A DNA stretch of 22,943 nt from a virus, in the IMG/VR virus record IMGVR_UViG_3300042345_000371, positions 1 through 22,943 of that record. One strand, given 5' to 3'. Numbering within the stretch: position 1 is the stretch's first letter; every line of letters begins with the position of its first letter. Position numbers and translations under genes: made by a program. Positions 10,902 to 15,475 of the stretch are shown here, piece after piece. A model generated the notes under the pieces. That model was not told where the DNA came from and searched no databases. It saw only the letters and a list, made by a program, of their open reading frames with translations.

Positions 10902-11935
10902 CAGAAAGGTGCATCATCAGGTTTAACATACTTCAAAGGTTTATCGAAATCATTATTTGGATTTATATTTTTATTCGAGTAAAATTCATTTATTTTAATT
11001 TCGTTTTCTTTTTTTAGTTGATATTCTCGTTCTTTATACATTTCTGATTGTATTTTAACATCAATCATATTTGGTCTTTTTATAACATCAATACCATTTA
11101 TTTTAAATCCTAAACCAAAATTATAATCACACATAATTGGTAACCCAGTCTTAGTTGGTTTACCTCCAGTATCAGTATCTTTTATTTTTACTATATCAAC
11201 CATTGTATAATTCCACATTGTTTGACTACCAATTAACCTATGTATCACTATAAAGTCATCAGCTTTATTTGAAAATGCTTTACCTCCCTCAATATCACTT
11301 TTTAATGGTGGCATAACTTCAAACTCCCAATCATGACCTTTTGGATATGTTGCACCTCTTCTACCACTTGCAGAACTTGGATGTGTATTTATGAATAATG
11401 TTTTTCCAGTTTTAGTGAAATGTTTTAAGTCATTTAATACATCATAATTATTTTGGTAACTCATTGGAAAACTTAAAGCATTGAATGGGTCAATTAAATA
11501 ATTGTCTGTATTAGAATTGTTAAATGTATCTAATAATTCATTAGGGGTGTATCTTCTTGAATTATCTACAAACTTAAAAAAGTGTTCAATCTTAATTAAT
11601 GCCCTTTGAATTTCTTTATATGTTAAATCCATAAAAGGCTTTCTAGAATACATTTGAACTAAATCCCTCAATACCTTACCATGATAATTTTCATCCATAA
11701 ACAAAGTAAAAGTTAATTCATGATTTGTTGCTAATGCTAAAAAGTACCATTCCATCCAATACGATTTACCTACGTTATCATGACCTAAAATCATATTCAA
11801 TTGGTTTTTTTTCCATACTAAATTATTATCTAAATCACAACCTAACTTTAAACCAAAAGGAATTTTGCCATCAACATAATCATACAAGTATTGAAGAGTT
11901 GAACCTGATTGAATAATATTATTTGACTGTTCCAT
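10901..11935 (-). CDS. DnaB/RecA-like phage replicative helicase (ATPase)
   Basis: 344 residues with a RecA-fold ATPase core. Walker A is GHDNVGKS (51-58), preceded by the usual strand (QLNMIL). The Walker-B-like strand is DNYLIDPFNALSF (about 145-156), and a later KTLFINTHPSSASG segment resembles the sensor strand of DnaB/SF4 enzymes. It lacks the DnaB N-terminal domain, as do many phage helicases of this Bacteroidota type. The C-terminal ~60 residues are charged and disordered, ending KPDDAPF. It follows the initiator gene with a 17-nt overlap, the typical initiator-helicase pairing. It would unwind DNA at the fork after loading by that protein. A RecA-like recombination ATPase is the alternative. 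Confidence 0.8.
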   Translation of the reverse strand: MEQSNNIIQSGSTLQYLYDYVDGKIPFGLKLGCDLDNNLVWKKNQLNMILGHDNVGKSYWMEWYFLALATNHELTFTLFMDENYHGKVLRDLVQMYSRKPFMDLTYKEIQRALIKIEHFFKFVDNSRRYTPNELLDTFNNSNTDNYLIDPFNALSFPMSYQNNYDVLNDLKHFTKTGKTLFINTHPSSASGRRGATYPKGHDWEFEVMPPLKSDIEGGKAFSNKADDFIVIHRLIGSQTMWNYTMVDIVKIKDTDTGGKPTKTGLPIMCDYNFGLGFKINGIDVIKRPNMIDVKIQSEMYKEREYQLKKENEIKINEFYSNKNINPNNDFDKPLKYVKPDDAPF

Positions 11936-12608
11936 ATTTATTAATTAAATTGTTAATATGGTTTACTCTTGCATCTTCTGATTTATTCTTAATAATTTCT
12001 TCTTGATTCATGTATTTTTCAAAATTATCAATTCTTAAAAAATGGTCTGGAGTAATCTTATTATTTTCTAAAACCCATTTATTATTGCACATATTTTTAA
12101 ATGCATTATTTAATTGGTCTAAACTATAATTAGTCTTTATAATCTTCTTAAAGTTATTTTCAGTAGTTTTTGACAAAACAGAAAAATTACCTTTTTTAAA
12201 TCCATTCACTTCTTTTTGGCTATTGAACCACAAAAGGAATTTACTCACTCTCTCATCAAAAGATATATGTTCTTTTTCTTCTTTTACTTTCTCTTCTTCT
12301 TTCTCTTCCTTACCGTTAGTCGGCATGGTAGTCATAGGGGTAGTCATAGGGGTAGTCATAGGGGTAGAGCCTAACTCTTCTTTAGTTGCTCTTAACCAAC
12401 CTTTTACACTTGTTTCAATTTGGTGTCTTTGACTTTCGTAACATAGATTTACTATAAAATTTAATTCAACAGGGTCTTCATTTAAAAACTGCTTATTAAT
12501 AATAGCAGTTAGAAAATCAAGTTTATCTTTATCATTTGTCAATTCGTTTAATACATCGAAATAGCTTCGTAAAAAATTAAACGCTCTTCGTTTCGTTTTC
12601 TTAATCAT
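11919..12608 (-). CDS. Replication initiator / replisome organizer (helicase-loader type)
   Basis: 229 residues from ATG 12608 (MIKKTKRRAFNFLRSYFDVL); a TTG six bases earlier is less likely. The N-terminal domain (about 1-80: RSYFDVLNELTNDKDKLDFL, then AIINKQFLNEDPVELNF) resembles the DUF6291-type domain that opens many Bacteroidota phage initiators. A linker follows with tandem TPMT repeats and an almost purely Lys/Glu stretch. The C-terminal half (about 115-229) is helical and could recruit the helicase coded next. The linker DNA holds iteron-like repeats and a polypurine tract, so the origin may lie inside the gene as in lambda O. It overlaps the upstream gene by 8 nt. Call rests on context plus N-terminal resemblance. 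Confidence 0.6.
   Translation of the reverse strand: MIKKTKRRAFNFLRSYFDVLNELTNDKDKLDFLTAIINKQFLNEDPVELNFIVNLCYESQRHQIETSVKGWLRATKEELGSTPMTTPMTTPMTTMPTNGKEEKEEEKVKEEKEHISFDERVSKFLLWFNSQKEVNGFKKGNFSVLSKTTENNFKKIIKTNYSLDQLNNAFKNMCNNKWVLENNKITPDHFLRIDNFEKYMNQEEIIKNKSEDARVNHINNLINKYGTVK
12270..12364. other. Candidate replication origin inside the initiator gene
   Basis: Downstream of the three iteron-like repeats (in the direction of the gene) the plus strand is pyrimidine at 41 of 42 positions from 12270 to 12311 (purine on the coding strand). In lambda, ori lies in the middle of gene O and consists of iterons followed by an AT-rich, strand-asymmetric purine stretch. The same order and orientation are seen here. 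That this is the origin is inference. Confidence 0.45.
12329..12364 (-). repeat. Three 12-bp tandem repeats (iteron-like)
   Basis: Plus-strand unit TAGTCATAGGGG is repeated perfectly at 12329-12340, 12341-12352 and 12353-12364 (minus strand CCCCTATGACTA). It codes for TPMT repeats in the linker of the initiator protein. The G run stands out in AT-rich surroundings. Copies are identical at the DNA level, including wobble positions. Confidence 0.9.
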
Positions 12609-12915
12609 TTTCAACCTCCTCTCTCACGTAAAAGCAATTATTAAAACCTTTTAAATCTCCAGTTAAACACAACATAGCATCTTTTGAATTTAACCATTCT
12701 TTACCTCCAAAAACAGAAATAAATCTAATCAATGAGTTTTCTGCAATTAATGCTTCTTTTTTAGTTTTATAGGTTTTCAATATTATAAACTCATCAAAAT
12801 TTTTAATTAATTTATGTTTTGAAACTCTATTTTCTACATTAGAACTACATCCAATATAAATTGGTTTTTTATCTTTAATTAAGATATAAACAGAAAAATT
12901 TTTTATTGTTTTCAT
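12601..12915 (-). CDS. GIY-YIG domain endonuclease-like protein
   Basis: 104 residues. The classic signature is visible: SVYILIKDKKPIYIGCSSNV with V-Y-I (9-11) and Y-I-G (20-22), followed by R30 and H34 in VENRVSKHK. A Glu in the helix EALIAENSLI would be the metal ligand. This small single-domain size is normal for phage GIY-YIG proteins (UvrC/homing-type nuclease superfamily). The substrate cannot be told from sequence. It couples to its neighbours by ATGA upstream and an 8-nt overlap downstream, so it is a fixed part of the replication operon rather than a free-standing homing insertion. Confidence 0.75.
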   Translation of the reverse strand: MKTIKNFSVYILIKDKKPIYIGCSSNVENRVSKHKLIKNFDEFIILKTYKTKKEALIAENSLIRFISVFGGKEWLNSKDAMLCLTGDLKGFNNCFYVREEVEND

Positions 12916-13177: not shown

Positions 13178-13271
13178 TAAAAAAGCCAAGCTAATAGGTG
13201 CGTGAGATAACCTATTAAGCCTGACTTATTTGTTGTTGTTATAAAATTTCTTTGGAAGTTCTCACGCTTCG
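13178..13271 (-). ncRNA. Candidate structured small RNA or attenuating leader
   Basis: The gap 13137-13294 holds a promoter box (13284-13277) and, ~50 nt downstream, a strong terminator hairpin, so transcription would give an RNA of roughly 95 nt ending near 13178. The 10-nt hairpin loop contains UCUCACGC (13207-13200 on the minus strand). It is perfectly complementary over 8 nt to GCGUGAGA at the RNA's 5' side (13267-13260). This would form a pseudoknot or an alternative fold competing with the terminator. No known class recognised. Read-through would reach the gene at 13136. Confidence 0.45.
13184..13226 (-). terminator. Long-stem terminator hairpin with complementary loop
   Basis: Arms 13184-13199 and 13210-13226 pair over 16 bp with one bulged base and two G-U pairs in RNA. 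The loop is 13200-13209. On the minus strand it is followed by a run of T (A13184-13179 on the plus strand). Best-formed intrinsic terminator of the window. Confidence 0.7.
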
Positions 13272-13276
13272 TTATG

Positions 13277-13284
13277 CAAATATA
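13277..13284 (-). promoter_or_regulatory. TATATTTG promoter box upstream of the structured RNA
   Basis: Exact TAnnTTTG box in the gap after the helicase-methyltransferase gene (stop at 13295-13297). A clear TTG at -33 is not seen. It would start the RNA at about 13270. Confidence 0.5.
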
Positions 13285-13294
13285 GTAATATTAT

Positions 13295-15475
13295 TTAGAA
13301 TAAAGTTAATGTACTATTTTTTTCTGCAATACAATCTGAATGATTCTTAGCATTAATTTTAAAGTAAGATTCTTTTAATTCGATTGATATACTTTTACGA
13401 TTCATTTTTAAGGCACAAAAACCTTCGCTACCAATACCACCAAAAGGACTTAATACAGTTTCGCCCTCATTTGAGTATAAATGTAATATTCTTTCAATTG
13501 TATCTAACTGTAAAGGGCATATATGTTTTTCGTCATTTCCATCACGTCCTGAGCGATATTGTAAAGTTCTTGAATAATCGATATCATACCAAACTGGAGA
13601 AGCGTATTTTTGCCATAAATCAACTGGCAAATAATCGCTTTTACTTTGGTCTTTATCTTGGTGAGTAATTGGAATTAAATTTTCTCCTTCATTTCTAAAA
13701 AATAGAATGTAATCTGGGATACCTACTCTAGTCATTGAACTATCTTTTTTAATAGTTTTATGAAGTAAACCTAATGCCTTTGTACGTTGCATTTCAGTAA
13801 CAGGATTCTTCCAAATTGTAGCACGTGAATGATAAATGAATCCTTGTTCTTGAAACCATTGAGTTATCATACCGCTGAAATCTCTTAATCCAATATATCC
13901 CTCTTTACCTTTTTGAATTGGTAAATCCATACAATGAATAGCACATATACGACCAGGTTTAAGTGTTCTTTTTAATTCAGGTATTAAGAATTTAAAATGT
14001 TGCTCAAATTGTTTATAATCCGATACATTACCCATGTCCTCTTCTTTATCAGAATATACATATAATTCAGCAAATGGAGGGCTAAATACAACTATATCCG
14101 CACAGTTATCTGCTAGTTTTTTTGTTTCTTGTACACAATCACCATTTAATAAATGATAGTTTTCTGTTTTAATTTCTTTATTATTAATCATAACTTTTGA
14201 TTTATTTGCTTTGTAATCGTTTTCTGCTGAATATTTAGCCATTTCTTTAATCATTTCAAAATGTCTTTGTTGTTTTTCTAAAATAGTTGCACGTACATTT
14301 ATTTGTGATTCAGGAATTAAAATATGAACCGTTACTTTGTTTTTTTGACCAAATCGATAGCATCTTCTTACTGCTTGATAAAATGCTTCAAATTTGAAAT
14401 CGTATGACATAAAAATCATTTGATTACAGTTTTGATAATTCATACCAAATGAAGCTATTGAAGTCTTTGTAATTAATGTTTTAAATTCATTATTTGCAAA
14501 TCCATTTAAATATTTTGCTTTATATTCAGGTTTATCAGAACCTTGTACATTTATAGCGTTATCTAATTTTTTAACAATTAAATCTGTTTCTGAATTTTTC
14601 AATCCCCAAATTAACCATTGATTGTCATTTTGATTAACTAATTCAATTGTTTTTTCAATTCTTAAATCAAATGAACGATTTAAATCTTTATGTAAATCTG
14701 TAGCACTTACTGCAACATCACCGAATAAAGTATTTGTATTATTTTCAACTGGTATAATATGCTCTATAAATTCAATTTCAGGTAAATCATAACCATCATT
14801 ATTAAATCCTAGTGTTTTTGGATTATCGCAAGCCATTGACCATGTAGATACATATTTCCAAAATGGGTCTTTTGCGTGTTTTCTTAATCTCCATTTACTT
14901 GTTTCACCACCATCATGAACAAAGTACATAGCTAACATTTCAAGATAAGACATAGCACCTAAAAACTGGCTATGATTACCTAACTCCATATGATCATTTG
15001 GTGAAGGTGTAGCAGTACAAGCTAACTTATAAGGTGTTCCTTTAAAACTATCAATAATTAATTGGCTCGTTTTACCTGAATTATTTTTAAGAATTGAACT
15101 TTCATCTAATACTACTCCGATATACTTAGAAGTATCAATATTAGATAACTGGTCATAATTTAAAACTTCAATATTTAAGTTACTTATTCCAAACTTTGAA
15201 AACTCTTTTTTAGTTTGCTCAACAACTGCTAATGAAGTAAGTACTAATACATTTCCTTTTGTTTGTTTAACAACTTGTGATGCCCATTCTAATTGCATTA
15301 ATGTTTTACCCAAGCCACAATCAAAAAATAAAGCAAATCTACCTTTACTTAAAGCCGTTTTAACTGCATACTTTTGAAAATCAAATAAGTTTTCATTTAG
15401 TTCATTTTCATCAATATCAAATCCACTTGATATGAATGTTTTTTTCTTAGTTTCTAAAAATTCCTTGTATTGCAT
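13295..15475 (-). CDS. SNF2-type helicase fused to a DNA methyltransferase
   Basis: 726 residues, two enzymes in one chain. Residues ~30-415 are a SNF2/SF2 translocase: motif I DCGLGKT (52-58), motif II LDES (123-126), motif III TATPSPND (154-161) and motif VI QAVRRCYRFGQ (367-377). Residues ~435-726 are an amino-methyltransferase in the beta order: catalytic motif IV FSPPF (464-468) comes first and the AdoMet-binding motif I LSPFGGIGSEGF (675-686) near the C-terminus. S-P-P-F favours N4-cytosine or N6-adenine methylation. Known in other phages as helicase-methylase fusions, likely to protect phage DNA from restriction. No nuclease domain is seen, so not a complete restriction enzyme. Start ATG 15475 carries the shared ATAGAAAT start context. 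Confidence 0.92.
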   Translation of the reverse strand: MQYKEFLETKKKTFISSGFDIDENELNENLFDFQKYAVKTALSKGRFALFFDCGLGKTLMQLEWASQVVKQTKGNVLVLTSLAVVEQTKKEFSKFGISNLNIEVLNYDQLSNIDTSKYIGVVLDESSILKNNSGKTSQLIIDSFKGTPYKLACTATPSPNDHMELGNHSQFLGAMSYLEMLAMYFVHDGGETSKWRLRKHAKDPFWKYVSTWSMACDNPKTLGFNNDGYDLPEIEFIEHIIPVENNTNTLFGDVAVSATDLHKDLNRSFDLRIEKTIELVNQNDNQWLIWGLKNSETDLIVKKLDNAINVQGSDKPEYKAKYLNGFANNEFKTLITKTSIASFGMNYQNCNQMIFMSYDFKFEAFYQAVRRCYRFGQKNKVTVHILIPESQINVRATILEKQQRHFEMIKEMAKYSAENDYKANKSKVMINNKEIKTENYHLLNGDCVQETKKLADNCADIVVFSPPFAELYVYSDKEEDMGNVSDYKQFEQHFKFLIPELKRTLKPGRICAIHCMDLPIQKGKEGYIGLRDFSGMITQWFQEQGFIYHSRATIWKNPVTEMQRTKALGLLHKTIKKDSSMTRVGIPDYILFFRNEGENLIPITHQDKDQSKSDYLPVDLWQKYASPVWYDIDYSRTLQYRSGRDGNDEKHICPLQLDTIERILHLYSNEGETVLSPFGGIGSEGFCALKMNRKSISIELKESYFKINAKNHSDCIAEKNSTLTLF

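Follow-up and report, generated by a model that had tools for sequence, protein, structure and literature searches.

Related leader systems

It is known for the IncI/IncB plasmids ColIb-P9 (repZ) and pMU720 that a hairpin in the 5' leader controls the replication gene by pairing of its loop with a segment further downstream; this pseudoknot acts at the level of translation, uses a shorter pairing than the one described here and is opposed by an antisense RNA. Attenuators of the pT181 type also stand before a replication gene. In these attenuators the loop of a leader hairpin kisses an antisense RNA (PMC3753616). Leaders of the ANTAR (EutV) type contain two small hairpins, of which the second is tied to an intrinsic terminator (PMC3369931).

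Here we describe a leader in a stretch of viral DNA of 22,943 bases (the window), from a virus that, among named phages, is closest to those of Flavobacterium. The leader consists of a 5'-terminal hairpin (H1) and a terminator-like hairpin (H2), the loops of which carry the complementary segments P and P', respectively, and it is one copy of a widespread leader module of Bacteroidota phages. It would resemble the pT181 system in that the kiss of a leader loop bears on the formation of an intrinsic terminator (PMC3753616), but the partner of the pT181 loop is a separate antisense RNA, whereas in the phage leader it is the terminator loop of the same transcript. By this analogy, the phage leader would be somewhat like a pT181 attenuator whose transcript contains the antisense loop itself. 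When the window and three complete phage genomes were searched for sequence copies of P or P', no consistent third copy was present, and an antisense gene was not found.

The ANTAR leaders are similar in combining two hairpins with a terminator (PMC3369931), but their hexaloops are recognised by a protein and are conserved at positions 1 and 4, whereas the loops of the phage leaders are variable and mutually complementary. With 59 different pairing sequences and loops of mostly at least 8 nt, the phage leaders do not carry ANTAR hexaloops, and no ANTAR gene was seen near the window leader. With the IncI/IncB rep leader the module shares the pairing of a 5' hairpin loop with a downstream leader segment; the partner in the plasmid pseudoknot, however, is not a terminator loop. 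Flavo-1, an Rfam family, is another structured element of Bacteroidota. Neither Flavo-1 nor any other Rfam family matched the window or ten loci at gathering scores, hits at E values of 3-7 being at chance level, and the leader thus matches no curated model of a riboswitch or another listed RNA. No description of kissing-hairpin leaders was found in searches of open-licence papers. We would place the phage module among the leader attenuators as an unlisted form with a proposed function.

The leader in the window

Table 1. Parts of the window leader and genes located downstream of it
Feature	Coordinates	Strand	Basis or remark
-7 box TATATTTG, Bacteroidota sigma-A promoter	13277..13284	minus	sequence; position of TAnnTTTG box from PMC9723704
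H1, 5'-terminal hairpin, GAAG/CUUC stem, 8-nt loop	13255..13270	minus	RNAfold MFE prediction
P, kissing segment GCGUGAGA, within H1 loop	13260..13267	minus	sequence, copy count, comparison
A-rich linker joining H1 and H2	13228..13254	minus	sequence; no conserved alternative pairing
H2, terminator-like hairpin (17 bp, a single bulge)	13183..13227	minus	RNAfold
P', UCUCACGC, exact complement of P, inside H2 loop	13200..13207	minus	sequence, comparison
U tract, six T	13179..13184	minus	sequence
First downstream gene, 74 aa	12912..13136	minus	no match in Pfam or PHROG
GIY-YIG nuclease gene, next in operon	12601..12915	minus	Pfam GIY-YIG, 1.5e-7
Replication-like gene (KRRAFNFLRSYFDV...)	11919..12614	minus	similar gene often directly follows the leader in relatives

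The minus-strand promoter box that had been named in the preliminary description was confirmed in the sequence, as was the exact complementarity between P and the loop of the U-tailed hairpin (Table 1). The box is the sigma-A -7 element. Because the TAnnTTTG box occupies positions -12 to -5 in Flavobacterium, as mapped in F. psychrophilum (PMC9723704), the predicted transcription start would be at about 13272, close to the 13270 proposed before. By eye, no TTG was seen about 21-22 nt upstream of the window box, thus this promoter has a weak upstream element.

The pairing segment had been described simply as lying near the 5' end of the RNA, which is true, but its location can be stated more precisely: RNAfold predicts it inside the loop of H1 (GAAG-CGUGAGAA-CUUC), and P:P' is therefore a loop-loop kissing pair. 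The H2 loop is 10 nt long (UAUCUCACGC), and a terminator scan with a loop rule of 3-8 nt omits this hairpin. The predicted folding energy of 106 nt of the leader is -22.0 kcal/mol (z -3.43), a value equalled by none of 200 shuffles (RNAfold). The 8-mer GCGTGAGA or its complement occurs at two sites only in the 22,943 bases (0.16 expected), and at least two copies were present in 1 of 100 window shuffles; the match, previously considered unlikely to be due to chance, is thus moderately rare when the window is taken alone.

A family of leaders with different pairing sequences

Eighty contigs were collected by the neighbouring helicase-methylase gene rather than by the RNA, and reading the stretches beside this gene revealed the same anatomy in different letters. 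Bacteroidota-phage contigs were then scanned for a promoter (TAnnTTTG) anchor, a 5' hairpin and a second hairpin of at least 8 bp, with no demand for a U tail. The scan yielded 98 distinct leaders with a perfect loop-loop match of 7-10 bp, compared to 1 in the reversed sequences, and among these leaders there were 59 different pairing sequences. These numbers under-count leaders whose kissing helix does not exceed 6 bp (e.g. L022, L061, L074). Loop pairs carrying a single mismatch did not rise above background (11 vs 9 reversed), and in a second scan internal G-U or A-C pairs in P:P' were essentially not found above background. An asymmetry between G-U and A-C, considered as proof of pairing at the RNA level, was dropped as both were absent.

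Since reversed sequences retain composition but not real promoters, and since the scans themselves select for pairing, two further controls were added. When 5' regions were swapped between leaders, about 5.4 matches of at least 8 nt were expected, as opposed to the 24 observed. The other control used 14 long leaders standing before one gene family, which were picked by position, without regard to pairing. Their own 5' and 3' parts shared 7.0 bp on average, compared to 4.3 bp with the parts of other leaders, and none of 20,000 permutations reached the observed total pairing. The mean energy of the P:P' duplex was -10.7 kcal/mol, that of swapped partners -1.6 kcal/mol. A search for the exact window pattern across IMG/VR gave mostly unrelated matches and was biased to one pairing sequence; its matches were used solely for the subfamily alignment and for the L198/L120 comparison (see below). 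An intramolecular kissing structure between H1 and H2 is strongly supported.

The anatomy was analysed in the 59 leaders with different pairing sequences. In 46 of them, H1 starts -2 to +3 nt from the predicted start site. The stem of H1 is mostly 4-7 bp long and that of H2 8-21 bp; the two hairpins are about 15-30 nt apart. In both loops the gap between the pairing segment and the 3' side of the stem is most often 0 and the 5' gap most often 0-2, which is the geometry expected when a loop-loop helix stacks on the 3' strand. TTTT stands at the end of H2 in 49 leaders and AAAA in none; T makes up about 72% of the first five positions after the hairpin, followed by A-rich sequence, and the U tract is broken in about 26% of the leaders. 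About 21/59 have a TTG at a distance of 21-22 nt upstream from the box. An open frame begins 7-26 nt past H2 in 52 of the 59 leaders; the ATG of the window, at 46 nt, is an outlier. Because of this position of the start codon, the earlier choice between a small RNA and a read-through switch can be narrowed, and an mRNA leader is favoured.

The remaining parts of H1, linker and H2 paired no better than swapped controls in the 59 leaders, hence there is no conserved antiterminator. A leader-peptide attenuator was not supported either: an ATG was present in 39/59 leaders, with 47 expected by composition. In leaders of the L056 type, a short open frame (MSRGINKILF...; L056 2176-2280) was seen by eye to span the whole leader and to end on the start of the replication gene, its TAA overlapping the ATG, an arrangement that is not general across leaders. 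Ten of the 59 leaders have AGUA on the 5' side and GAA on the 3' side of the inner stem of H2 (0.7 expected with shuffled arms, maximum 4): L228 40355, L040 4399, L059 5387, L031 6930, L241, L051, L263, L372, L381 and L229 37569. This looks like the loop E (bulged-G) motif, and it might be a protein site.

Compensatory changes in the kissing helix

Seventeen leaders of the window's subtype were aligned. The kissing helix was 99.3% paired in the alignment and four of its eight pairs had changed on both sides; with the partner slid by 1-3 columns, only 0-2 two-sided changes were obtained for the entire structure. Most of the rows had been found with the exact window pattern, therefore the alignment under-states the variation; the five rows that differ in their letters were obtained through protein-based searches or are second leaders. 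The clearest case is contig G299 (L198), which carries two paralogous leaders with near-identical 5' hairpins, one containing GCGUGAGAAA and the other GCGUAGGAAA, each with its own matching loop: P differs by GA -> AG and P' is compensated. Contig G298 (L120) has a single such leader, with GCGUGAGAAA, and retains GA. Comparison of related phages for paired changes was the check suggested in the preliminary description, and as complementarity is retained through compensatory changes, the pseudoknotted (loop-loop) RNA proposed there is well supported. Because the pairing persists while the letters change, the leader is almost certainly a working control element, so far undescribed.

Occurrence and downstream genes

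Among cultured phages, the scan detected leaders in FCV-3 (two), FCOV-F46 and FCL-2, and two clear leaders plus a third, weaker one in snusmum6-2. By reading, leaders were recognized in Cellulophaga phi13:2 and phi19:3 (CUCUCACA with UGUGAGAG) and in Flavobacterium 11b (CGGGCAGG with CCUGCCCG). Twenty larger phage contigs contained 27 matches, mostly one or two per contig, some of which, having no start codon nearby, are probably due to chance. For these contigs, the window and the named phages together, 35 matches were obtained compared to 3 in reversed sequences. The scan gave one doubtful match in phi38:1 and none in B40-8 and Staphylococcus phi11. About 393 kb of one Sphingobacterium chromosome gave no leaders, but a single genome is not enough to conclude that the module is confined to phages. 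A covariance model gave no matches in 296 Bacteroidota genomes, a result that is uninformative as the search had no positive control and few candidates were scored per genome.

The genes behind the leaders include those for helicase-methylases, for DUF6291 and replisome-organiser-like proteins, for replication initiators and for NUMOD4-HNH endonucleases; replication, helicase-methylase and HNH endonuclease genes predominate. The helicase-methylase gene (L003-L082) is preceded by a short leader of 20-40 nt in some phages and by the full two-hairpin leader in others; the module is therefore optional, as if gained and lost as a unit. The window itself encodes a helicase fused to an N6/N4 DNA methylase (726 aa, 13295-15475); many Bacteroidota-phage contigs contain relatives of high identity, and more distant ones occur in Mycobacterium, Arthrobacter and Pseudomonas phages. 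Since a separate copy of the leader accompanies NUMOD4-HNH endonuclease genes (L228 40460-41152; L230 13748-14227), the spread of the module may be aided by homing endonucleases.

Proposed mechanism and alternative explanations

We propose, with a probability of roughly 0.6, that the module is a cis-acting transcription attenuator in which the terminator is tied to the 5' hairpin of the message. The sigma-A promoter would start an RNA whose first element is H1, followed by H2 with its U tract and then by the phage gene. The two loops, complementary over 7-10 bp, would form an intramolecular kissing complex, and this contact would become possible only as the H2 loop exits the polymerase, at about the time when the U tract is made. 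At H2 the polymerase would either stop, which leaves an RNA about 95 nt long, or continue into the gene, and the kiss would set the frequency of stopping by raising or lowering termination.

Comparison of the leaders shows the promoter, H1, H2, the retained complementarity of their loops, the U tract and the placement ahead of genes; that H2 terminates, that the kiss alters termination and in which direction, we infer. A sigma-A promoter lies directly upstream, with independent support from the 98 vs 1 count and from the TTG at -21/-22 from the box, and a stable hairpin with a U tract precedes the start codon. The two hairpin loops covary and keep their perfect complementarity. As no conserved antiterminator with mutually exclusive pairing was found, the module departs from the two-state attenuator of textbooks. 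The broken U tracts and the distant window ATG also count against attenuation, and the near-absence of G-U in P:P' exceeds the strictness that an ordinary RNA helix needs.

The main rival of the attenuator is control of translation or mRNA stability, in which the two-hairpin 5' end would protect the mRNA or control the access of ribosomes to the start codon and H2 would not be mainly a terminator. The location of H1 at the extreme 5' end and of H2 at 7-26 nt from the start codon suits this explanation, the A-rich start region beside H2 would fit translation control equally well, and Bacteroidota do not use Shine-Dalgarno pairing (PMC9976891). What makes it unlikely in our judgement is that T-rich sequence (TTTT in 49, AAAA in 0 of 59) begins directly at the end of the stem and is followed by A-rich sequence, which is the signature of a terminator. 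The strict Watson-Crick pairing and the great diversity of P could also suggest that the terminated leader is a small RNA acting in trans, its loops pairing with sibling leaders in a gene-dosage feedback. P does differ within all 13 loci having at least two detected leaders, and the compensated paralogues of G299 (L198), set beside the single leader of G298 (L120), would agree with such a role. But intramolecular pairing should win over pairing in trans, P is diverse anyway, which makes distinct P within a genome weak evidence, and orthogonality rests on one suggestive genome; we give this explanation a slim chance. It seems similarly doubtful that the terminated leaders sense their own abundance, and thereby the gene dosage of the phage, by loop-loop pairing in trans, with a private pairing code for each leader and phage that avoids cross-talk.

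P and P' might instead be DNA sites, a protein-bound inverted repeat or part of an origin, with the pairing of the RNA being incidental. Inverted repeats near the promoters of replication genes and a perfect complementarity lacking G-U are consistent with this, but P' is in every case located in a hairpin loop and shows kissing geometry, the order is fixed, with the promoter ahead and the U tract behind, and the P-P' spacing ranges from 27 to 104 nt without the helical phasing considered for DNA looping (Rayleigh p 0.95-0.97), all of which render DNA sites very improbable. Chance complementarity could be considered for the window, where the 8-nt match by itself is moderately rare, and the exact-pattern matches in IMG/VR do include many unrelated ones; for the family it is refuted by the reversed-sequence, swapped-region and position-only controls, and we assign it a practically negligible probability.

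Significance

Few studies have addressed gene regulation in phages of Bacteroidota, and this leader recurs one to three times per genome before replication, helicase-methylase and homing-endonuclease genes. Family models built from sequence miss it because it has almost no conserved sequence; the conserved property is the match of a terminator loop to the message's own 5' end. The question posed by the module is whether an intramolecular kissing contact tunes intrinsic termination. As cultured phages carry the element, this is directly testable, and the natural variants provide a ready set of mutually distinct pairing codes.
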